Shown piece by piece: positions 5,802 to 31,359 of a DNA stretch of 41,274 nucleotides (the stretch's first letter is position 1; each line of letters starts with the position of its first letter). The notes beneath the pieces were generated by a model. That model searched no databases. It saw only the letters and a list, made by a program, of their open reading frames with translations, and had not been told where the DNA came from. Source of the DNA: a virus; the IMG/VR virus record IMGVR_UViG_3300014502_000273, positions 1 to 41,274 of that record; one strand, 5' to 3'. Both the position numbers and the translations under genes were made by a program.

Positions 5802-6323
5802 CTAAGTCTTCATTATAAAAGCTAAATCGTAGTATTTTGGTCGGATATCTGCAATACCATCGGTTGAAGAACTTGTAGAGTTTGTTCCTGAAGCAGACGT
5901 ATGGTCATTAAAAGTCTCTGCACCTCCATCATAGGTATATTGGCCGTTAACAGTTTCCGGAGTCGAACCACGTAAGTTTCTATCACCGGGATAGCCATGA
6001 GTATGAGAAGGCCCCGCATGCGTATGACCCGCTGTTGTTTTAGCGGTGGCTCCGCCGGTCGTTCCAGGATTAGTCGCTGCCGTTGCGACACCCTCAATAA
6101 ATCTTCCTAATAGGTTGGGTGTACTATTGTTACCATCGCAAATCACCCAGCCGGAAGGAATAGAGGCGATAGTGCCGGCCCACATGATAATAGCGCCGGA
6201 TGGCATTTTAGCATCGCAATAAGAGACTGCGTCATCGTACTGAGTTTCGAGGTTATTAAGGTTCGCAGCGCTTATTCCGGGCGCTACTCCAGAATTCCAA
6301 GTCGTTTTAGTATATACAGTCAT
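5802..6323 (-). CDS. Tail fibre/collar-domain protein
   Basis: 173 residues with a phage collar domain: MPSGAIIMWAGTIASIPSGW then VICDGNNSTPNLLGRF, followed by a Gly/Thr/His-rich region with HTH motifs (HTHAGPSHTHG, about 99-109) that in related fibres coordinate metal along a trimer axis, and an RPKYYDLAFIMKT end. It is a short receptor-binding or tail-tip fibre. AAGGAGCTAAC precedes the ATG. Confidence 0.88.
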   Translation of the reverse strand: MTVYTKTTWNSGVAPGISAANLNNLETQYDDAVSYCDAKMPSGAIIMWAGTIASIPSGWVICDGNNSTPNLLGRFIEGVATAATNPGTTGGATAKTTAGHTHAGPSHTHGYPGDRNLRGSTPETVNGQYTYDGGAETFNDHTSASGTNSTSSSTDGIADIRPKYYDLAFIMKT

Positions 6324-6332
6324 GTTAGCTCC

Positions 6333-6797
6333 TTATGAGATAGTATCCGTTCTGGTGACTACAATCGATTCTAAGTTTGTTTTTGCTCTGTGATAAAGCA
6401 CCCTTGCGAGCATTAATCCGCTATTTGGTGTAGATGTAGCCGTGCCCGCGAACCAACCCAACTCTTCAATGGTTGCCGTATTCCCCTCGTAGGGTGATAT
6501 GTACGTCGTGGTCGTTTCAACGCCTGTAGCGCCGTCTGCTTGCGCCGTGATGGCTTTCCTGCCGAACTCTGCTACCAATTGAGTTTGAGATTTGGTATTA
6601 GCAGTGGCAGAACTACCCCACGCCATATAGAGGATTTGCAGAGATTGAACAGTGCCTTTTAATAAATCTCTGACAGCATTTAGAGCGCCGTTCTTGACCT
6701 CATTCTCAAGATTGACTACTTCTTTAATTGAGCCGTCAAGGTTAAAGATTTCGATTTTAACCTTACCAGACCAACCCCATTTTTCTTTTGTTTTCAT
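6333..6797 (-). CDS. Tail tip hypothetical protein
   Basis: 154 residues, start set at ATG 6797 because GGAGAGACT lies just ahead; the longer frame runs into the upstream gene. The product begins MKTKEKWGWSGKVKIEIFN and has a beta-rich body with AWGSSATANTKSQTQLVAEFGRKAI, a pattern also found in the structural protein at 16617 (LGLDTRASLAEGDTLATLTE). It lies between the Tal-like protein and the collar fibre, so a tail-tip or baseplate part is likely. Confidence 0.7.
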   Translation of the reverse strand: MKTKEKWGWSGKVKIEIFNLDGSIKEVVNLENEVKNGALNAVRDLLKGTVQSLQILYMAWGSSATANTKSQTQLVAEFGRKAITAQADGATGVETTTTYISPYEGNTATIEELGWFAGTATSTPNSGLMLARVLYHRAKTNLESIVVTRTDTIS

Positions 6798-6805
6798 AGT
6801 CTCTC

Positions 6806-8221
6806 CTAACACGGATAAAGCGTCGTACTGGGATATAATGTGGTACTGGGTACAGAGCACGCATAAACTGTTTCAGCGACACTTTCACCCCATGCCCATG
6901 AATCGCTTTGACTGGTTGATATCACAACAACGCCAGTAGTGCCTAACGATAGCGAATCAATATGCTTTGTCTGGAGCATTTTACCGAGGGTCTTAGCCCA
7001 ACTGGGCAGTAAAGTTCCCCTGATTACCGTCACTGTGTACGTTCTGACTGAACCGGTAATCTGTAAACTCACCGCAGAGATTAAGAACTGTTCGCCATTT
7101 ATCCCCAACGGAATGTGGGTAATAGTTACCATCTGCCCGATTGCCAATCCATCTTTTGTGACGGCAAAATTCAACTGCTCCGATTCCTGGCTAAATTCCG
7201 CTAATTGCGCGGATGCGGCTGTAAAACCCGCGTCCAAACTGTCTACAGTTGAGTCGTCTGTTATTGCCTCAACTATTCCAGTGCCCTCACCTTCTATCGT
7301 CTGCCGTGCGATAATCTCCGCATCATCTTGAGATTTAATCAGTACGTCATATTGGCCATAATAAGCAATCACCACAGCAGCGCCATTGGCGGGAGCGGCG
7401 CCTGCGGATACTACTGGGTCGGCTTTTGCCCAGTAGAAATCCTTGCCGGTGTCAACGCCTTTGATTCCGATAGTCATGGCAACGGAATTTACTGTAACGG
7501 AATTCGGGGCTTTCGCTATCGGATAACTGACAGTAAATGCCTTATTACTACCGTCTCCGTGCAATGTTTCGGTTTGTAATGAGGTTTCAGCTACGCCACC
7601 ACGGATGTATTGAGTATTGCGATAGTCGGGATTCCCCCCGGACCAATGAGCGGAGCCTTTTATAATGTCTAATGTTGTCACGGCCCATGGAGCCGGATAA
7701 GTACTACGAGCTACAAAATATAATCGCTTTAGCGGGTCAATCCACCACGTAAACCCGGCCTGTTGTTTTAAAGCATCCAAGCACGCGGACACACTGATAT
7801 AACTAAAAACAGTGGAGCCAATTACCGGGCCGCCTTGAATGCTACCGACAGTGATTCCTTCGGCTGCAAGATAATTAGTCACCAAATCCTGTACGATATA
7901 CCCGCATGTTTTATTGAGGTATGAGGCAGCGACTAACCTTTTGTCTGCTAAATAATGCCAGTCAGCGCATTGGAAAGAATGAACGATGTACCCATCCGGC
8001 GAAATATTGTCCTTTGAAGGGGTGTCAATAACGCCGCCAAATGCCAGAGTTCCATCTATATCGATGGTGATAGGCTGTCCGCGGTAGAAAGTATACGCAT
8101 GCAGTCGGTCAGGGACAGATAAGGAAGCGACGGAACGTTCCTCTATCCGGTTGTCAATACGCAAAGAACCCCTCGTTTGTTTATAGACAATTGAGGCTAT
8201 CGATACTATAGGATATGACAT
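6806..8221 (-). CDS. Tail-tip (Tal-like / baseplate hub) protein
   Basis: 471 residues directly downstream of the tape measure gene, with a one-base TAATG overlap. The N-terminal ~200 residues (ITIDIDGTLAFGGVIDTPSK...) resemble the hub domain of siphophage tail-associated proteins, which close the distal tail. A central GDGSNKAFTVSYPIAKAPNSVTVNS region looks like an inserted beta domain. Family assignment rests on position and general pattern. The C-terminus repeats STTLYPSTTLYPC. Confidence 0.75.
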   Translation of the reverse strand: MSYPIVSIASIVYKQTRGSLRIDNRIEERSVASLSVPDRLHAYTFYRGQPITIDIDGTLAFGGVIDTPSKDNISPDGYIVHSFQCADWHYLADKRLVAASYLNKTCGYIVQDLVTNYLAAEGITVGSIQGGPVIGSTVFSYISVSACLDALKQQAGFTWWIDPLKRLYFVARSTYPAPWAVTTLDIIKGSAHWSGGNPDYRNTQYIRGGVAETSLQTETLHGDGSNKAFTVSYPIAKAPNSVTVNSVAMTIGIKGVDTGKDFYWAKADPVVSAGAAPANGAAVVIAYYGQYDVLIKSQDDAEIIARQTIEGEGTGIVEAITDDSTVDSLDAGFTAASAQLAEFSQESEQLNFAVTKDGLAIGQMVTITHIPLGINGEQFLISAVSLQITGSVRTYTVTVIRGTLLPSWAKTLGKMLQTKHIDSLSLGTTGVVVISTSQSDSWAWGESVAETVYACSVPSTTLYPSTTLYPC

Positions 8222-13709: not shown

Positions 13710-14156
13710 TTAATACACCTTGTCTATTGAGAAACTTGGGGCGGGATAATCCTCTGTGTCAGTGTTGGCGTCACTGTAAATACTACCTACCAAACGCGCT
13801 GAATTGAAACTGGAGGGCATAAGTTTGCCGGTCGACAATTTATCCAGTAACGCTTCATACCTCGCCTTGAGAGCCTTCCAGTGAGGGGTAGCACCGGCCT
13901 CTGAGGTTTCAGGGAACATTGCCTGCTCGGCCATGGCCGCGGCACCCAATGCGTTCAACAATCTTAAAAATGTAATAAATTCTGCCGGCGCCGTAATATC
14001 TCCAAGAAAACCCAGAGCCAAGAGAACGGTGTCAATTTCACCTTCAATCAGGGTGATATAAGTCCCTACCTGCGTTTCGGTCGGGGTTGTTGTTGCACTG
14101 TAGGTTCGCTTGGGATTAAGCGCCTTCACGTCGTCGATACTAGCGTAATAACTCAT
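13710..14156 (-). CDS. Head-tail connector/adaptor protein
   Basis: 148 residues, beginning MSYYASIDDVKALNPKRTYS and mostly helical thereafter, typical of HK97 gp6- or Mu gp36-like adaptors that attach below the portal. It overlaps the repeat protein gene by 4 bases (ATGA-type). Assignment by pattern and gene order. Confidence 0.65.
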   Translation of the reverse strand: MSYYASIDDVKALNPKRTYSATTTPTETQVGTYITLIEGEIDTVLLALGFLGDITAPAEFITFLRLLNALGAAAMAEQAMFPETSEAGATPHWKALKARYEALLDKLSTGKLMPSSFNSARLVGSIYSDANTDTEDYPAPSFSIDKVY

Positions 14157-16603
14157 AAATCCTCCGTAATTGTCAGTCCGTTCCCGGATGATGTGAATAT
14201 TAAATCGTCGCCACTACCGGACATAATTAAATGATTTGAGCCGTCTGTGTAAAACATCCCGATATGGAAAGTGGCAAGGTCGCTATGCCCCTGAATGACT
14301 ATTACCACTTGCCCCTGATGTTCTGTGAATATCACAGAGTCATCCTCGCCTTGCCTGACTATAATCGTCTGAGTTTTACCGGTCTCATCAATGTGCAGTC
14401 CGGCAATGGAACCCATTTCAGCGATGATGGTTTGTAATAAGCCGGTCTCAATATAATGCTGAATGGCATTGCCGTCTATTTCAGCGATGATGGTTTGCTC
14501 ATGTCCAGTATCTGTAAAGGTAAGATTTTCAGCTTCACCAATGACAGCTTTTATGATTTGGAGTGCGTTCTCATAAAAGAGTTGTCCCGCGCTACCGCCT
14601 ATTTCGACGATAATTATTTGACCGTGTTCCGTTTCCAGATAGATTGAGTTGTCGGATTCGGAAATAACAGCGGTAATGATTTGACCTTGAGCCTCAAGGA
14701 ATGTGGCGATATCCGATTCACCAATGACAGCAGCTATCACCTGCTCCCGCGATTCGGTGAAGATGGCCGAGTCCGTTTTACCCAGCGCGGCCAGAATAGT
14801 TTGCAGGTGAGATGTTTCGTTAGCCGTGGCAATATCACTGTGTCCCTGCAGGGCAAGGATGATTTGTTCTAAGACTTCGGTATATTTCAGCCCGGCGTTG
14901 CCGCCGATTGCGGCTAATACCACCTGTAACCGGCTGAGTTCGTTAAATATAGCCTGGTCGGTATGTCCCTGCACGGCCAGAACGATTTGACCCCGCGATT
15001 CCAGCATCGTTTGTAAATCCGCTTTACCGATAATAACGGGGATGGCTTGACCGCGTGTCTCTACCATTGTTAGCTGATCTAATTTGCCTTGAGCTGTTAA
15101 AATAACTTGCTCCAGAGCCTCGTAATAATGCCTGACTCCATTTCCACCTTGAGCGGCTAATATGACCTGTTCCCTGGCTTCCGTCATTATCTGATTAACC
15201 GATTGACCTACCACGGCATTTACAACCTGCATTCTGCCGGTTTCGTTATAGGTTTGTGGCGCTGAATACGTTACTACCAGTTTCGGTTTGTAACCTGTGC
15301 CCATATCGGCACTCCACACATCGAGATAAGCAAAAGCGTCTTTCTTCCATACGGGTGGGCTTGCTGCAACATCATAATTGGCGTTTCGGGTGCCTAGTTT
15401 GGTAATTCCAGTCGTATTTATTGCTACTATTCCTGTCGCATTCAGGGCAAAGTTATTAAATGTAGCATCCGTCCGCCAATTTGCATAGGTAATCGGGGTA
15501 TCACAAAATGCCGTTGACCCTAAAGAATCGAAATCACCATTGGCAAGTGCCGTATTCGATGCTGGGGCAGACGAATATACGTTGATGTTCGGCGTTATCC
15601 CTAGTGTGTCAGCCTTGTCTGCACCACGGAGAGAGAGTGTCGCCGCTGATACTGCGGTTCCTGAGCCTAGTCCGTGAGTGTCAAAGAGGAATATCAATCT
15701 CCACAGCTCACACCACCTACCTGTTGTCGAAGCGGCATAAATATACTGAGTTGCATCAACACTAGAGTCATCACAACCTGTACCAGCCCCTGCGATGGCA
15801 TTTGCCCATGTGTTACCCGGACCGGACCCGTAACTTTGACTGACATAACCGTCTACACTCGTTGTCTCTGGATTAGCATCAGGGTAAAATGTCTGTGAGT
15901 CTGAAACTTCAAATGGATATTTAACTGAATCGAAGACAGTTTTAGATATCTGCTCTTCGTTAGCATTAACAGCATATATCCCCAATTTGACAGGGAAATC
16001 ACCAGCCTGATTATAGACAATCCTAACATCGCCGTTGGGGTTGACAGGAAACACCCATGTTCCCAACGTATGGCCTTCTATGAGTCTGATTCTGCGTTTA
16101 CAGATACCATAATCCCATTCTAATGTATTATGTGCGTAACTCGAATTTAGAGGGTCTTCATCCAGCAACACGGCTTTGTTAGCCTTGACTTCTTTACTAT
16201 TCAAATAGAGTGTAGGACTCCAACGTGCTATCTGACCACTCTTGCGCCCGTCCGGCTGGTCATTGAGGCAACCTGCTGTAACTAACCCCTCATTTGTAAC
16301 AAAGGCGTCAAATACGTTGGTCTTTGAGCGATAACCACCAATGTCAACCACAAACCCCACATCAAGTAACTGCCCTTTATAATTCACCATCGGCAATCCT
16401 GATACAACAGAGAATTGCTGACGTGTATTTAAGGCACGATAGAACTTAGCATACGGACTCTTGCTTTGCTCTCCAAGAGCAGGCAAGGCATAGTCCTGGC
16501 TAAACTCTACTTCATCCGGATAGATACCCTGCTTTGCGAGTTGGGCGATGAGCAGAGTATCCGTCACTTGTTTCATCAGGTCGGTTACCTTTATCAGGGT
16601 CAT
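14153..16603 (-). CDS. Large repeat-bearing virion protein (putative head/tail fibre)
   Basis: 816 residues in the middle of the head genes. Residues 1-230 form a beta-rich unit of unknown family. Residues 235-449 look like a secreted beta-sandwich of the carbohydrate-binding DNRLRE/CBM kind (WRLIFLFDTHGLGSGTAVSA, KPKLVVTYSAP). Residues 454-780 are 16 tandem repeats of 20-21 residues with consensus E-x(3,4)-Q-x-I-x-A-x2-G. The end has GSGDDLIFTSSGNGL. An exposed fibre or adhesin is inferred from modules and repeats; the family is not recognised. ATG at 16603. Confidence 0.7.
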   Translation of the reverse strand: MTLIKVTDLMKQVTDTLLIAQLAKQGIYPDEVEFSQDYALPALGEQSKSPYAKFYRALNTRQQFSVVSGLPMVNYKGQLLDVGFVVDIGGYRSKTNVFDAFVTNEGLVTAGCLNDQPDGRKSGQIARWSPTLYLNSKEVKANKAVLLDEDPLNSSYAHNTLEWDYGICKRRIRLIEGHTLGTWVFPVNPNGDVRIVYNQAGDFPVKLGIYAVNANEEQISKTVFDSVKYPFEVSDSQTFYPDANPETTSVDGYVSQSYGSGPGNTWANAIAGAGTGCDDSSVDATQYIYAASTTGRWCELWRLIFLFDTHGLGSGTAVSAATLSLRGADKADTLGITPNINVYSSAPASNTALANGDFDSLGSTAFCDTPITYANWRTDATFNNFALNATGIVAINTTGITKLGTRNANYDVAASPPVWKKDAFAYLDVWSADMGTGYKPKLVVTYSAPQTYNETGRMQVVNAVVGQSVNQIMTEAREQVILAAQGGNGVRHYYEALEQVILTAQGKLDQLTMVETRGQAIPVIIGKADLQTMLESRGQIVLAVQGHTDQAIFNELSRLQVVLAAIGGNAGLKYTEVLEQIILALQGHSDIATANETSHLQTILAALGKTDSAIFTESREQVIAAVIGESDIATFLEAQGQIITAVISESDNSIYLETEHGQIIIVEIGGSAGQLFYENALQIIKAVIGEAENLTFTDTGHEQTIIAEIDGNAIQHYIETGLLQTIIAEMGSIAGLHIDETGKTQTIIVRQGEDDSVIFTEHQGQVVIVIQGHSDLATFHIGMFYTDGSNHLIMSGSGDDLIFTSSGNGLTITEDL
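14264..15244 (-). repeat. 16 tandem 60-63-bp coding repeats
   Basis: This DNA encodes residues 454-780 of the large virion protein. Unit starts fall at residues 454, 475, 495, 515, 535, 555, 576, 596, 617, 637, 657, 678, 698, 719, 740 and 761. Units are 20 or 21 residues and diverged at DNA level, so the array is old or under diversifying selection rather than a recent slippage product. Confidence 0.9.
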
Positions 16604-16616
16604 AAGTTACTCCCTA

Positions 16617-17180
16617 TTATTCTGACAGCCCGATGTAAAGCGAGCCGTCCAGTTTGTCACCGCTGAGCAGCGTTCGGGCGGCGCTCAAAACCAGCGAGCA
16701 AACCAGATGTTTACCGGCGGCGTCCGTAACGGCTGTGACATCCGTGCAGAGAAAGATGTTCTTGACCGCTGTGACCCAGTTTTCGCCCGCCGTCCACTCC
16801 ACTGTCTTGGAGTCGGCGCGGTTATAGGTTGCCGGATTATGGATATAGAAGTCCTGGCCGTTGGCGCCGGTGCCGCCGGAACTTAAGGCTTTCCGCTCAT
16901 ATCCGCTCTTGGTGAGCTCCGTGAGGGTTGCCAATGTATCCCCTTCCGCCAGTGAGGCACGGGTATCAAGTCCCAGATAATGATTGGCAGGCGGGGCGCC
17001 GTAGTTGGACATGGCGGTGGCAAAGAAGGCGCTGAGAATCGCTATCTCACCTGTCGAATGCAGGATATTGCGGTCTACGGCATTATCTTCCCAGATGATA
17101 CGGTAAATGCCGTTCTCGTCTTTTCTCCAATGCCGGACATGCCATAAAGAATGATATTTGAGACCTAATTTATATTCCAT
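16617..17180 (-). CDS. Hypothetical virion protein
   Basis: 187 residues. N-terminal MEYKLGLKYHSLWHVRHWRKDENG is followed by a core with ANHYLGLDTRASLAEGDTLATLTELTKSGYERKAL, a phage structural pattern seen also at 6333-6797. Beta-rich, no TM. It lies downstream of the capsid genes, so a head completion or fibre-associated protein is possible. AGGAGG lies 9 bases before the ATG at 17180. Confidence 0.65.
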   Translation of the reverse strand: MEYKLGLKYHSLWHVRHWRKDENGIYRIIWEDNAVDRNILHSTGEIAILSAFFATAMSNYGAPPANHYLGLDTRASLAEGDTLATLTELTKSGYERKALSSGGTGANGQDFYIHNPATYNRADSKTVEWTAGENWVTAVKNIFLCTDVTAVTDAAGKHLVCSLVLSAARTLLSGDKLDGSLYIGLSE

Positions 17181-17199: not shown

Positions 17200-17355
17200 T
17201 TATTTCTTTACGTATATTTCACGGACATCTGTTTTGACGTCCTTGTCATTGCGAATTAAGATAGTTGCCAATTCTTCCGGACCCTGAGCGCTGACAGATT
17301 TCAGGTCATCTTCGGGGATTGTCAGTTTTCCTTTAATCGTGATTTCAATCTCCAT
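17200..17355 (-). CDS. Small hypothetical protein (51 aa)
   Basis: Begins MEIEITIKGKLTIPEDDLKS and ends RNDKDVKTDVREIYVKK, a compact beta-alpha pattern. ATG at 17355 overlaps the end of the upstream gene by 11 bases, with AAGGAGAAAGAAG in front. Not recognised. Similar short open frames between capsid and tail genes of phages often encode small connector or cement proteins; here this is only a guess. Confidence 0.6.
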   Translation of the reverse strand: MEIEITIKGKLTIPEDDLKSVSAQGPEELATILIRNDKDVKTDVREIYVKK

Positions 17356-17932
17356 TCTTCTTTCTCCTTATCACTGTTAAATCGGGTAATAAAACTAAAC
17401 CCTCATTGTGCGCAAGAGTCTGTAAAATGATTTGCCGTGCAAGATTTAGCGAGGCCGGGCATTTCATCCGGATGTGCATCTGCTCAGTGGGTTTTCCTGC
17501 TTCGTCTCGATTCATAACCCCGGGTTGAATGGGGAAAGTCCGGCATATTGACGGCCTGTATTCGTAAACTGAGCACTTATTGTCTTTCAGGAATGGACAG
17601 ACGCCCTTAATACAAACAGCGCCCTCATTATCACCACAAACGCTGTCAAGATATTCTCTGGTGATACCCGGCGCTGTTAGTAACCTCTCAATATCTTCAG
17701 GTTTTAACGCAACCCATTTATAACGGCAGCAATCTCCACATTCACCCGGCGGACAATGCAGTAATGGCGCAACTATCTGATATGTTTTGTCGTTGAGTCC
17801 CAGCGGCATCGGTACAATCTGCTCGTGATAAACTGTGAAAACGTCCTGCCAGAATTCATCAATTAACTCAAGATTCGGCCGGCCGTACCATTTTGAGAAC
17901 ATCTTGAGGTCTTGCGCTGTGAAGTTAGCCAT
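17345..17932 (-). CDS. YkgJ-like zinc/iron-chelating cysteine protein
   Basis: 195 residues of the PF03692 (CxxCxxCC) type: CPPGECGDCCRYKW near residues 59-72, then CPFLKDNKCSVYEYRPSICRTFP at about 117-139 and a further Cys (CPAS). The family binds zinc or an iron-sulphur centre; roles are poorly defined. ATG at 17932 was chosen from AAAGGAGACA ahead. Placement directly after the capsid gene, inside a structural operon, is unusual for this family. Confidence 0.8.
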   Translation of the reverse strand: MANFTAQDLKMFSKWYGRPNLELIDEFWQDVFTVYHEQIVPMPLGLNDKTYQIVAPLLHCPPGECGDCCRYKWVALKPEDIERLLTAPGITREYLDSVCGDNEGAVCIKGVCPFLKDNKCSVYEYRPSICRTFPIQPGVMNRDEAGKPTEQMHIRMKCPASLNLARQIILQTLAHNEGLVLLPDLTVIRRKKNGD

Positions 17933-17963
17933 TGTCTCCTTTGTGCTTGCGGACTCAAATGAA

Positions 17964-17993
17964 GAGGGGAGCCGTTTTGTGTTGACTCCCCTC
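17964..17993 (-). terminator. Hairpin after major capsid gene
   Basis: A perfect 8-bp stem GAGGGGAG/CTCCCCTC with a 14-base loop, 32 bp before the start at 17932. It resembles the hairpin at 11685 in its GAGGGGA arm. No strong U-tract, so it may attenuate or protect the capsid transcript's 3' end. Confidence 0.55.
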
Positions 17994-18033
17994 TCGCTTT
18001 CAACCTGCAAACCTATGTTAGAGATTTCAGGGT

Positions 18034-18954
18034 TTAGCTGTCGTCATTCATCATGATGGCAGTGCGGGGATCGCCGTAGCCCACAACGAACCGGGCATCG
18101 ACGCCATAATAGAACGTCTTAGCCATGAATGCGTCCTGATTGGTGGGTAGGTCGAGAGAAGCGAATTGCGGAGCCTGTCTGTCCTGTAGAATGATAGGCT
18201 TCAATTCCTCGGTCGTGCAGAGGACATACCAGTCATATTTACTGGCATTAATCCACGGGCTTGAAATGATGTTCTTGATTAAGTCCATTTCAGGTCGGAC
18301 AGTGCCGGCAACACCTGGTACCCATAATGCCTGTTTGATGGGCATGTACATATAAGGGGAGCAGACGATGGTGTCCGGGATAAGATTTAAAGGTTCGCCC
18401 CAATCGTCTTGGAATCCTGCCATTGCCTCGGCCGCCGCAGCAACACCCGTGCGGATTTCCGCTTCTGAAGCGGAATAACTACCAGCTAACAGGTTGTCGA
18501 TATTTGCAGAAGCGCCGATAACGCGGGTATCGGCAAACATCGCGGCGCCATCATAGGCGAGGAGCGTAATGCCGTCATCGAGCTGTGAGAAAACCTCGCG
18601 GTTGATAGCCCGGTAGTAAGCATTCGCCAATCCCCGGATACGAGGCGGTATCATGCCCATCTTGTCGTCAAGAATGGCATTGCGAGCGACTTCGAGAGTG
18701 GACTCCCAGTCCTTGTTCTTCAGGGAATAGGTATACGGATTCAATCCACGAAGTTTTCGCTTGTCTTTCCATTCGCCCATCGGTGGGGTGATACCGAACC
18801 AATTTAGACTCTCGGTCTCGGTATTGGACGGGATTTTGGTGGAGATTTTCAGCGCATCGTCCGTACTGTTCTTTTTGTCTCCCAGTGCCTGGGTAAGAAT
18901 TGCTTGAAAGTTAGTTCGCAAGCCTGCGAGTAAATCGGAACTTACAACACCCAT
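18034..18954 (-). CDS. Major capsid protein, Mu gpT-like
   Basis: 306 residues matching the Mu-like major head subunit family (PF10124): SLNWFGITPPMGEWKDKRKL, NPYTYSLKNKDWESTLEVAR, IPPRIRGLANAYYRAINREV, then C-terminal PDTIVCSPYMYMP. It adopts the HK97-type capsid fold and builds the head shell. Preceded by protease/scaffold and decoration genes, as in Mu. Terminates just before a stable hairpin (17964-17993). Confidence 0.92.
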   Translation of the reverse strand: MGVVSSDLLAGLRTNFQAILTQALGDKKNSTDDALKISTKIPSNTETESLNWFGITPPMGEWKDKRKLRGLNPYTYSLKNKDWESTLEVARNAILDDKMGMIPPRIRGLANAYYRAINREVFSQLDDGITLLAYDGAAMFADTRVIGASANIDNLLAGSYSASEAEIRTGVAAAAEAMAGFQDDWGEPLNLIPDTIVCSPYMYMPIKQALWVPGVAGTVRPEMDLIKNIISSPWINASKYDWYVLCTTEELKPIILQDRQAPQFASLDLPTNQDAFMAKTFYYGVDARFVVGYGDPRTAIMMNDDS

Positions 18955-24937: not shown

Positions 24938-25352
24938 GTTCTTCCCTCAGGTTCGAGGCGATATCATTGAGTTTGGTGAGTAATTTGGATTTAGCATCTG
25001 TCACAGGGGCATTGGTTTTAGTCGGCGGCTCCATGTGTTCTTTTCTACCCCAGTCCCGGGGATATTTCCGCTCTAACCACCACGCAGCGGCTTGCCAGGA
25101 TTCCCGCGCCGCCAACTGAATGACAGTCACGTTCTTGGCGATTGCTGTAGCTTCTGCCTTTTTAACGGCCTCGAGGAATTCAGAATATTCGCCCTTGCCT
25201 CGCTGCTCTCCCCACTTCTTCCAGTTGTTGTATGTCTGTTCGCTGATGCCTGATGCCTGACATGCTGTTTTGATATAGTTTCCGGCGCTAATCAGCCGGC
25301 AAATTTGTTCCTGTAATTCCTTCGTTAGCTTTGGTTTTCTTCCCGCACTCAA
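24903..25352 (-). CDS. terS: Terminase small subunit-like protein
   Basis: 149 residues. HTH region (GNYIKTACQASGISEQTYNNW), then a helical AKNVTVIQLAARESWQAAAWWLERKYPRDWG pattern common in TerS proteins, and C-terminal TDAKSKLLTKLNDIAS. The start is TTG at 25352 with GCGGAGAAAA ahead. It would recognise the packaging site and recruit TerL. It overlaps the methyltransferase gene by 65 bases. Which of the two adjacent TerS-like proteins acts as packaging factor cannot be told. Confidence 0.75.
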   Translation of the reverse strand: MSAGRKPKLTKELQEQICRLISAGNYIKTACQASGISEQTYNNWKKWGEQRGKGEYSEFLEAVKKAEATAIAKNVTVIQLAARESWQAAAWWLERKYPRDWGRKEHMEPPTKTNAPVTDAKSKLLTKLNDIASNLREEHDSQEKNQQSH

Positions 25353-26643
25353 TTTTCTCCGCTTTTCCGCCGGACCACTTTTCCCAGCGGTTTATTATTA
25401 CGTCAACATAATGGGGGTCGAGTTCTAACAGGCGTGCTCGTCTCTCACACTTCTCGCAGCCGATTAAAACGCTTCCGGACCCGCCGAAAGTATCTAAAAT
25501 AATGTCACCTTTCATAGAGTTGTTTCTCAGCATGCGCTCGGTCAATGCCACCGGCTTCTGCGTGGGATGAACGTAGTCATTACAGTTATCGCGCTGGACA
25601 TACCACACGTCCAGGCAGTCCATAAAAGTCATGCGGTCCATCCACACGTCCTTTTCCTTGGCAGTGGCCTTCTTGTTCTCGTAGGGCTTGTGGCCGTCCT
25701 TGAAAACGTAGGCACAGGGTTCATAGACGCGATGATATGTCGAATAGCTGAAAACAAAATGCTCTTTCAGCCAAATAATGCAGGGCTGAATACTATAACC
25801 ATATTTTCTAAAGGTGCCGATAACCAGGTCCATATAGTTTGTCGAATGCCACATATAGACTGCCGTCTTCTCTTTGGTGAAGTGGTAGATATTGCCGATA
25901 ACTGCGGTCAGAAAGTAGGCATAGCCATCGAGCGACTTATTGTCCTCGAACGCCTTCAACTTACTGCCGTATTTCCCGGATGAGTAACCATTACCGGCCT
26001 GTGATTTGTAGTCGACGTTGTAAGGTGGATCCGTAATAACCAGGTCTGCGCGATCGGTTCCCATTAACCGCTCGAAGTCTGTCTTATCGGTCGAATCGCC
26101 GCACAGCAGCCGATGTTCACCCAACTGCCACAAATCGCCGTACTCACAAATGGCCACCGCATTCTCGGGAACTGCATCGTCCTCAATCAATCCTGTTTTC
26201 GGCGGCCGTACATCAGCCAGGAGCTCCTCGATATCCCTGTCTTTAAAGCCGGTAAGGTCCATGTCGAACTCGCTTTTCTCAAGTTCGTACAGCAACTCTT
26301 TCAGTACCGGCGTATTCCAATCGGCTAAGAGCGCCGACTGATTGTCCATAATAGCAAAGCCGGTCGCTGATTGTGGGTCGTCTTTGACTTTGACCACCGC
26401 TATCTGATTCCAACCCAGAGCCTTTGCTGCTTTCCAGAGACCGTTGCCGGCCTCAATGATACCAGTCTCGGAATTTACCACGATAGGTTTTCTCTGTCCG
26501 TAAGTGGCGAGGCTGCTCTTGATAGCCGTGATATTGGCGCTGTCGTGTCGGCGCGCATTACGCGGATCTTCTTTGACCGAATCAATATCAACTGCCAAGG
26601 GCATTAACGACTCTGTGATTTTGTTTATTACGGCCGTTGTCAT
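25288..26643 (-). CDS. ParB-like domain fused to N6-adenine DNA methyltransferase
   Basis: 451 residues. Residues ~15-110 form a ParB/sulfiredoxin-like domain (DPRNARRHDSANITAIKSSL, EAGNGLWKAAKALGW). The C-terminal part is a beta-class methyltransferase: motif IV DPPY at 205-208, HPTQKP at 359-364, SAM motif FGGSGS at 386-391. It probably methylates adenine in phage DNA, for host-restriction evasion or packaging control. ATG at 26643 follows GGAGAATCAACA. It stands at the start of the packaging operon, after two terminators. Confidence 0.9.
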   Translation of the reverse strand: MTTAVINKITESLMPLAVDIDSVKEDPRNARRHDSANITAIKSSLATYGQRKPIVVNSETGIIEAGNGLWKAAKALGWNQIAVVKVKDDPQSATGFAIMDNQSALLADWNTPVLKELLYELEKSEFDMDLTGFKDRDIEELLADVRPPKTGLIEDDAVPENAVAICEYGDLWQLGEHRLLCGDSTDKTDFERLMGTDRADLVITDPPYNVDYKSQAGNGYSSGKYGSKLKAFEDNKSLDGYAYFLTAVIGNIYHFTKEKTAVYMWHSTNYMDLVIGTFRKYGYSIQPCIIWLKEHFVFSYSTYHRVYEPCAYVFKDGHKPYENKKATAKEKDVWMDRMTFMDCLDVWYVQRDNCNDYVHPTQKPVALTERMLRNNSMKGDIILDTFGGSGSVLIGCEKCERRARLLELDPHYVDVIINRWEKWSGGKAEKIECGKKTKANEGITGTNLPAD

Positions 26644-30555: not shown

Positions 30556-31359
30556 TCACTTCCCAAAATCCTCAATCGTTAATCCAGGTATTTTATCCGG
30601 CGGCTCCATCGCGTCTTTTTTCTGCTGTCCACTTTGTCCGTCCTTTTTAGGGTTGTGTAAATTGTCGTCTCTTTGTTGAAACTTCCGAGCATTTGTCATC
30701 CAGTTGAAAAGGGTCAACTTTTTATTAACCGGTTTTTTCCGTTTTTCAGACCCCCAGTAAAGGTTATATTTTTCAAATTCTTCATCGAAATTAATATCCC
30801 GAAAACGGGGTTTTAAATTGTTTAAATATTCATCAAAAGTTTCCTTAGTTGGTTCGTCCTTTCTTTTGTAAGATGTTATTGTAATATGTTTATTGTTATT
30901 GTGTGTACCTAAAGAGGTACTGGTTTCGGTACCTGTTTGGGTACTGGTTGCGTCCTGAATAGGTACTGGTTGCGTCCTAAAGAGGTACTGGTTTTCGGGG
31001 TTAACTGGTACCTCGTTAGGTACTGGTTTACTGGTACCTGTTTGGGTACTGGTTTGCTGCCAGATTTCATAGTCTTTTTGGATGCCATATTCCAAATTTT
31101 GTCCGGTGCCGGAGCAAGTTAATATTTTCCTTTCAACAAGTTTTTTAAGGGTTCTTCCGATATGCTGATGAGCAAGCCCGGTAGCTTCGACAAACTGAGA
31201 GTAACTTATCCGGTCAGTTTTCTTACTCCAGCCATAGGTTTTATTAAATACACACCACAGGACGCGGCTTTCATAGGCTGATAAATTTATTCGGCTAAAT
31301 GCTGTTGCAAGTTCTTTTGCTACCTTAATATAGCCGTCTTCAATTTGGGGTTTGGCCAT
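30556..31359 (-). CDS. Replication initiator, lambda O-like
   Basis: 267 residues. The N-terminal domain (KPQIEDGYIKVAKELATAFS, INLSAYESRVLWCVFNKTYG, HQHIGRTLKKLVERKIL) matches the phage replication protein O N-terminal family (PF04492), a winged-helix that binds origin iterons. Residues 102-155 are a Thr/Ser/Gln-rich low-complexity linker encoded by the iteron array. The C-terminus (NNLKPRFRDINFDEEFEKYN...) would contact the loader or helicase. AAAGGACAAAAATC precedes the ATG at 31359. Confidence 0.9.
   Translation of the reverse strand: MAKPQIEDGYIKVAKELATAFSRINLSAYESRVLWCVFNKTYGWSKKTDRISYSQFVEATGLAHQHIGRTLKKLVERKILTCSGTGQNLEYGIQKDYEIWQQTSTQTGTSKPVPNEVPVNPENQYLFRTQPVPIQDATSTQTGTETSTSLGTHNNNKHITITSYKRKDEPTKETFDEYLNNLKPRFRDINFDEEFEKYNLYWGSEKRKKPVNKKLTLFNWMTNARKFQQRDDNLHNPKKDGQSGQQKKDAMEPPDKIPGLTIEDFGK
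30840..31054. other. Phage replication origin: iterons and AT-rich region
   Basis: Six exact GGTACTGGTT copies (30916, 30940, 30962, 30984, 31019, 31045), two variants GGTACCTGTT (30928, 31033) and one GGTACC (31007) lie inside the initiator gene. A 22-bp block (30928-30949) recurs exactly at 31033-31054, and a second 22-bp unit repeats in tandem at 30950-30993. The flank 30840-30905 is AT-rich, a candidate unwinding region. The layout mirrors the lambda origin within gene O. Confidence 0.85.

Follow-up and report, generated by a model that had tools for sequence, protein, structure and literature searches.

A putative modular phage adhesion fibre with a carbohydrate-binding-like head and a shaft of 20-residue repeats, encoded beside head-connector genes

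What is a protein with a long array of short, diverged repeats doing among the head and connector genes of a phage? The window, the whole 41,274-nucleotide stretch of viral DNA analysed here, contains a minus-strand open reading frame at 14153-16603 that encodes such a protein of 816 amino acids (aa). It is probably, at about 0.6, a modular carbohydrate-binding adhesion fibre that would have its C-terminus at the neck or collar and would use its repeats as an exchangeable shaft. Modular phage adhesins with carbohydrate-binding modules are already known as a kind. As far as the searched libraries show, an N-terminal head on an exchangeable shaft of 20-residue repeats, with a period that recurs among unrelated shafts, is undescribed. 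The gene, its parts and its neighbours are as follows.

14153 to 16603, minus strand: the whole gene of the 816-aa repeat-bearing putative adhesin or fibre (open reading frame and family comparison)
15899 to 16603, minus strand: N-terminal domain, aa 1-235, supersandwich-like (conserved columns; AlphaFold2 pLDDT mostly ~90)
15266 to 15898, minus strand: CBM96/DNRLRE-like beta-sandwich, aa 236-446 (predicted fold; profile NF033679 in relatives)
15245 to 15265, minus strand: junction, aa 447-453, with the array opening with TYNETG (alignment with L041-L044)
14264 to 15244, minus strand: sixteen diverged repeats of 20-21 aa, aa 454-780, the proposed shaft (unit reading, autocorrelation, profile)
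14156 to 14263, minus strand: C-terminal tip, aa 781-816, with strand-like sub-repeats of ~9-10 residues, the proposed anchor (autocorrelation)
13710 to 14156, minus strand: 148-aa gene directly downstream, in a head-tail connector position (position and relatives)
16617 to 17180, minus strand: 187-aa gene, borderline PF23140 Gp80, podophage GP4 fiber I protein (26.9 bits against a cut-off of 27)
17345 to 18010: CxxCxxCC gene (PF03692) for a putative metal-chelating protein
18034 to 18954, minus strand: Mu gpT-type major head protein (PF10124, E 1e-45)

The sixteen units that an earlier note had read at 14264-15244 proved exact in coordinates, spacing and consensus. Units 1-8 start at aa 454, 474, 494, 514, 534, 555, 575 and 596, and units 9-16 at aa 616, 636, 657, 677, 698, 719, 740 and 760, with the array ending at aa 780; nine of the sixteen units are 20 aa long and seven are 21 aa. 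By direct reading, every unit has a Q (16/16) followed at Q+2 by I or V (16/16), with A at Q+4 in 11/16 and G at Q+7 in 14/16. Lags 20, 41 and 102 have z-scores of 8.7, 9.8 and 10.8, respectively, in a BLOSUM autocorrelation compared to shuffles. Units 9-16 score 78.3 bits (E = 3.9e-24) with an HMM built from the first eight units, whereas the top of 999 shuffles scores 10.6 bits. The peak at lag 102 suggested a five-unit super-repeat, which was rejected given that unit identities show no preference for a spacing of five. Any two units share a mean of ~7/20 residues, independent of their spacing. No TRF-type DNA tandem array was detected over the window repeats and the top 120-nt self-match inside the array is 61%; therefore, this copy of the array did not arise by recent slippage, in keeping with the same note's view of diverged units. 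Nor was a named family found for the repeat, again as the note had it, by searches of Pfam, PHROGs, NCBIfam and PDB sequences, and weak WD40/Vgb propeller matches at aa 724-807 were judged to be chance. The repeat type is undescribed, as far as these libraries show.

The N-terminal half is predicted with much more definition. An AlphaFold2 (AF2) model of the full protein, made with an alignment of 28 family rows, has pLDDT values mostly of ~80-97 across aa 1-446. The N-terminal domain carries the family signature N-V-L-E-W-D-Y-G-I-C-K-R-R, and aa 79-284 of the predicted model resemble alpha-mannosidase-type supersandwich domains with Z ~10. The model of aa 236-446 has a TGF-beta-propeptide-like beta-sandwich fold, and the predicted head is matched by the carbohydrate-binding module (CBM) structures 8wab (Z 12.8, rmsd 4.3 A, 172 aligned) and 7vbo (Z 11.0, rmsd 3.5 A, 164 aligned). 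The NCBIfam DNRLRE profile NF033679 matches 11 of 27 family members, with a best E of 5.7e-08 and the window member below threshold, and a Pfam match for a CBM96/DNRLRE-type domain was absent from the window protein. Together, the fold and profile matches uphold the suggestion of a carbohydrate-binding-like beta-sandwich ahead of the repeats. A CBM96 protein of a Brevibacillus phage appears among the viral fold matches; CBM96/DNRLRE phage proteins, such as that of Brevibacillus phage SecTim467, are like the window protein in the predicted fold of aa 236-446, whereas here repeat arrays come after the domain. The predicted folds suggest that the head binds sugar. The supersandwich fold is common among enzymes, such that catalysis by the head may also be possible.

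Proteins that share the window repeats were located only by using the neighbouring 187-aa gene as query, which led to five close relatives, four of which (L041-L044) carry the repeat type. The window array profile matches L044 at E 6e-64, L043 at 7e-45 and L042 at 5e-31, and the L041 protein is that of L043, cut at the contig end. TYNETG recurs at the head/array junction of L041-L043, and TYDETG is found there in L044. The heads of all four are unlike that of the window, and those of L041 and L043 are unlike those of L042 and L044, with no similarity detectable by BLASTP between the L043 and L044 heads (E 1.8). An hhalign comparison of the L044-type and window-type heads gives a probability of 64% over 112 columns; the two may be homologous. 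Over the ~4-5 kb that encode portal, protease and capsid, the DNA of L042, L043 and L044 is 91-95% identical; the figures are 81-86% for the region of the 187-aa gene and 82-88% for the array, and only in the stretch from the preceding gene to the beginning of the array is similarity largely lost. Adjacent to its own L044-type head, L042 has a separate 155-aa open reading frame that is 55% identical to the start of the L043 head. The comparison of repeat number in relatives, which the earlier note had proposed, shows that array length varies (~16 units in L044, ~10 in L043), and the L044 array includes an exact 183-bp tandem duplication equal to three units. This pattern of identity, with the duplication and the unit counts, shows that heads are swapped at the array start and that arrays change length. 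A single assembly error is an unlikely cause, given that L041 and L043, as well as L042 and L044, are contigs with different metagenome numbers. On these alignments, head and repeats behave as separately exchangeable modules, a feature that the earlier note had missed.

The converse comparison starts from the head. The window head is found in 28 viral loci at 33-51% identity and in at least 25 phage proteins, and their tails diverge wholly after a common head that ends KPKLVVTY, with tail lengths from ~13 to >1100 residues. Seven members (L004, L005, L006, L008, L025, L028 and L029) have tandem repeats of period 20, each with its own consensus, L009 bears L005-type repeats, L014 and L023 repeat with a period of ~21, a group with SGxGxE units has 17-19, and some members have no tail repeats. 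The repeats of L004, L005, L008 and L028 are broken by non-repeat stretches of ~160-430 residues, as expected of a stalk bearing extra domains. The window repeat profile matches no other array of the head family (best E 0.11), and a hydropathy pattern shared among the different arrays is not significant (p = 0.064), so the period recurs but the sequence and hydropathy do not. A smaller exchange, internal to the head family, is seen in the alignment of L014 with L023, which share the N part at 69% identity, the CBM at 28% and the tail at 92%. No relative of the 816-aa protein was found in INPHARED, and neither the window array nor the L005 array, used directly as query, brought up more proteins of its type. 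A sample of 294 genomes from one class, taken for host assignment, has head relatives in just 5. The head module is also fused to a calcineurin-like phosphoesterase in L022 (1747-3531, a Dehalococcoidia MAG contig) and to an Ig-like domain in L020; therefore, it is not limited to phages.

Given that one head occurs on at least eight repeat types that show no sequence relation to that of the window but are mostly of period 20, and that one repeat type occurs under unrelated heads, the shaft might be locked in length yet free in sequence. Such a shaft would follow a geometric rule in which each unit contributes a fixed rise or coil, and might represent a new fibrous beta fold, a tentative proposal that we consider more apt to fail than to hold. 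If true, it would mean that many sequences satisfy this geometric rule.

Genomic position bears on where such a fibre would sit. The order in the window is the Mu gpT-type head protein, the CxxCxxCC gene, the 187-aa gene, the 816-aa gene and then connector and tail-completion genes, which agrees with the earlier placement of the gene among head and connector genes. For a PF03692 gene, a place between the major head protein gene and the fibre genes is odd. The 148-aa gene has no family match of its own, and its position and relatives suggest that it encodes a connector. The 187-aa gene matches PF23140 with E 6.8e-06, just below the curated cut-off, is 74-81% identical in L042-L045 and is a companion gene in close relatives; any likeness to the podophage GP4 fiber I protein gp80 is confined to this gene and does not extend to the 816-aa protein. 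From this context, the 816-aa protein is presumably a virion protein. In relatives whose head genes are unrelated (L029, L005, L043, L044 and L053), adaptor or connector genes lie directly after the fibre gene or one gene further on. Between fibre and adaptor, L005 and L053 have a small BppU_N-like gene, which passes the Pfam cut-off in the former and falls short of it in the latter. The adaptor-side position, together with this BppU_N-like gene, whose type of domain forms the proposed collar of the lactococcal neck passage structure (NPS), makes a neck fibre the likeliest placement by analogy.

The protein could instead belong to the tail, as a tip or side fibre with the same logic of head and shaft, and its gene would stand in the neck module by chance. 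The L025 fibre gene follows its tape measure gene and its product ends in a tail-hub-like domain, L012 is likewise fused to a tail-hub domain, and the gp80-like 187-aa companion gene of L045 follows a Dit-like gene. The gene is at the head-connector boundary in the window and in L005, L029, L043, L044 and L053, however, which makes a tail fibre rather unlikely. A capsid fibre or decoration, which would hold particles near biofilm or cell-surface polysaccharide and have no role in host recognition, is less likely still: only two genes separate the window gene from the major head protein gene upstream of it, and the L008 capsid gene is a few genes upstream, but adaptor genes are the more constant neighbours and no capsid-binding motif was identified.

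For the neck fibre, an anchor at the C-terminus, with the head distal, is suggested by three features. The C-termini of L012 and L025 are fused to a common domain (30% identity over 500 columns) that also occurs in phage phiPsal1, in the gene immediately following the tape measure. The L053 array is 73% identical to that of the window, but L053 has a different tip and different downstream genes. Finally, sub-repeats of 9-10 residues mark the tip, with a z of 3.1 at lag 9 in the window and of 5.4-9.0 at lag 9-10 in L043, L028, L029, L008 and L004. Anchoring by the C-terminus is disfavoured by the conserved part of the window's family being N-terminal and by the N-terminus being the anchor end in many fibres.

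In short, the N-terminal half of the neck fibre would be a carbohydrate-binding head composed of the supersandwich and the CBM96-like sandwich, the sixteen repeats would form a beta-rich shaft with a roughly fixed pitch per unit, and the C-terminal tip would serve as the virion anchor, with the neck or collar as its most likely site. Recombination at the array start would swap whole heads and duplication inside the array would alter its length, allowing a phage lineage to try new surface glycans with its own head and connector unchanged.

The fold of the shaft is less certain. The full-length AF2 model mixes helix and strand in the array, where pLDDT is <50 over a large part. Modelling of the array by itself, with four relatives in the alignment, gives five models, of which the best is mostly beta with a mean pLDDT of only 54 and the rest score 26-37; the top match in a fold search with the array model has E 0.27. 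The beta-solenoid or stacked hairpins that the earlier note envisaged thus met low-confidence models, the best of them mostly beta. Triple beta-spirals and triple-stranded beta-helices are repeated beta shafts between globular ends in phage and virus fibres, and the window repeats differ from them in unit length and consensus. AF2 over-predicts beta-solenoids for repeat sequences (PMC11795689), and, given this bias and the low-confidence models, a multimeric beta shaft is no more than the likeliest guess. An array that acts as a flexible or disordered spacer, lacking any regular fold, would fit the low pLDDT and the absence of a significant common hydropathy pattern, but seems improbable given that the Q, I/V and G positions are kept over sixteen diverged units, that the units are I/V/L/A-rich with a fixed spacing of 20-21 aa, and that the best array model, though weak, is mostly beta. 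A curlin-like (CsgA) solenoid with two strands per coil, homologous or convergent, is very unlikely: its units of 23 +/- 5 aa (PMC10192328) are similar in length (~20-23 residues per unit, probably with two strands each) and Pontibacter CsgA 8c50 is among the array fold matches (E 1.9, probability 0.09), but the conserved residues differ, Pfam scans find no curlin to E 1 in the window or to E 0.1 in L043 and L044, the window units bear one conserved Q each rather than the paired N-x-psi-x-psi-x-Q motifs of curlin (PMC10192328), and AF2 favours solenoids for repeats.

The closest functional parallel to the proposed neck fibre is the NPS of lactococcal 936 phages, a neck-associated fibre with exchangeable CBMs, for one of which host binding has been shown; BppU_N-type domains form its proposed collar, and the exchanged CBMs decorate the neck (PMC6669499). 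Both systems have exchangeable carbohydrate-binding modules and involve a BppU_N-type domain, with neck placement here suggested by the genes. In the NPS, a conserved BppU-like collar domain lies at the N-terminus, the fibre is a coiled coil and the CBM is C-terminal, whereas the window protein has an N-terminal CBM head and a shaft of 20-aa repeats; a Pfam scan finds no BppU_N in it, and in the two relatives described above a neighbouring gene of its own encodes the BppU_N-like protein. The window fibre would work like the NPS, a likeness of function that need not reflect homology. Heads, shafts and tips that recombine separately at fixed borders would provide a natural kit for altering phage adhesion, and interchangeable 20-residue shafts of unrelated sequence would allow tests of what determines pitch in beta fibres. 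The border of array and head could also serve as a recognisable marker for ancillary adhesins in head-connector regions, which are rarely checked by annotators.

Several minor observations concern nearby genes and other parts of the window. At its N-terminus, the head-tail adaptor of L044 (8903-9691) has an additional domain that weakly matches tail fibre and virion structural families and is a possible fibre dock. Directly upstream of the repeat protein in L029, the gene at 6001-7989 has Hint and LAGLIDADG domains and likely contains an intein. At 30866-31059 of the window is a TRF cluster of short imperfect tandem repeats with units of 12-26 bp, such as GGTACTGGTT, which is possibly regulatory or related to replication. 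Upstream of the packaging genes, at 25288-26643, a ParB-N-like domain is fused to a DNA methyltransferase.
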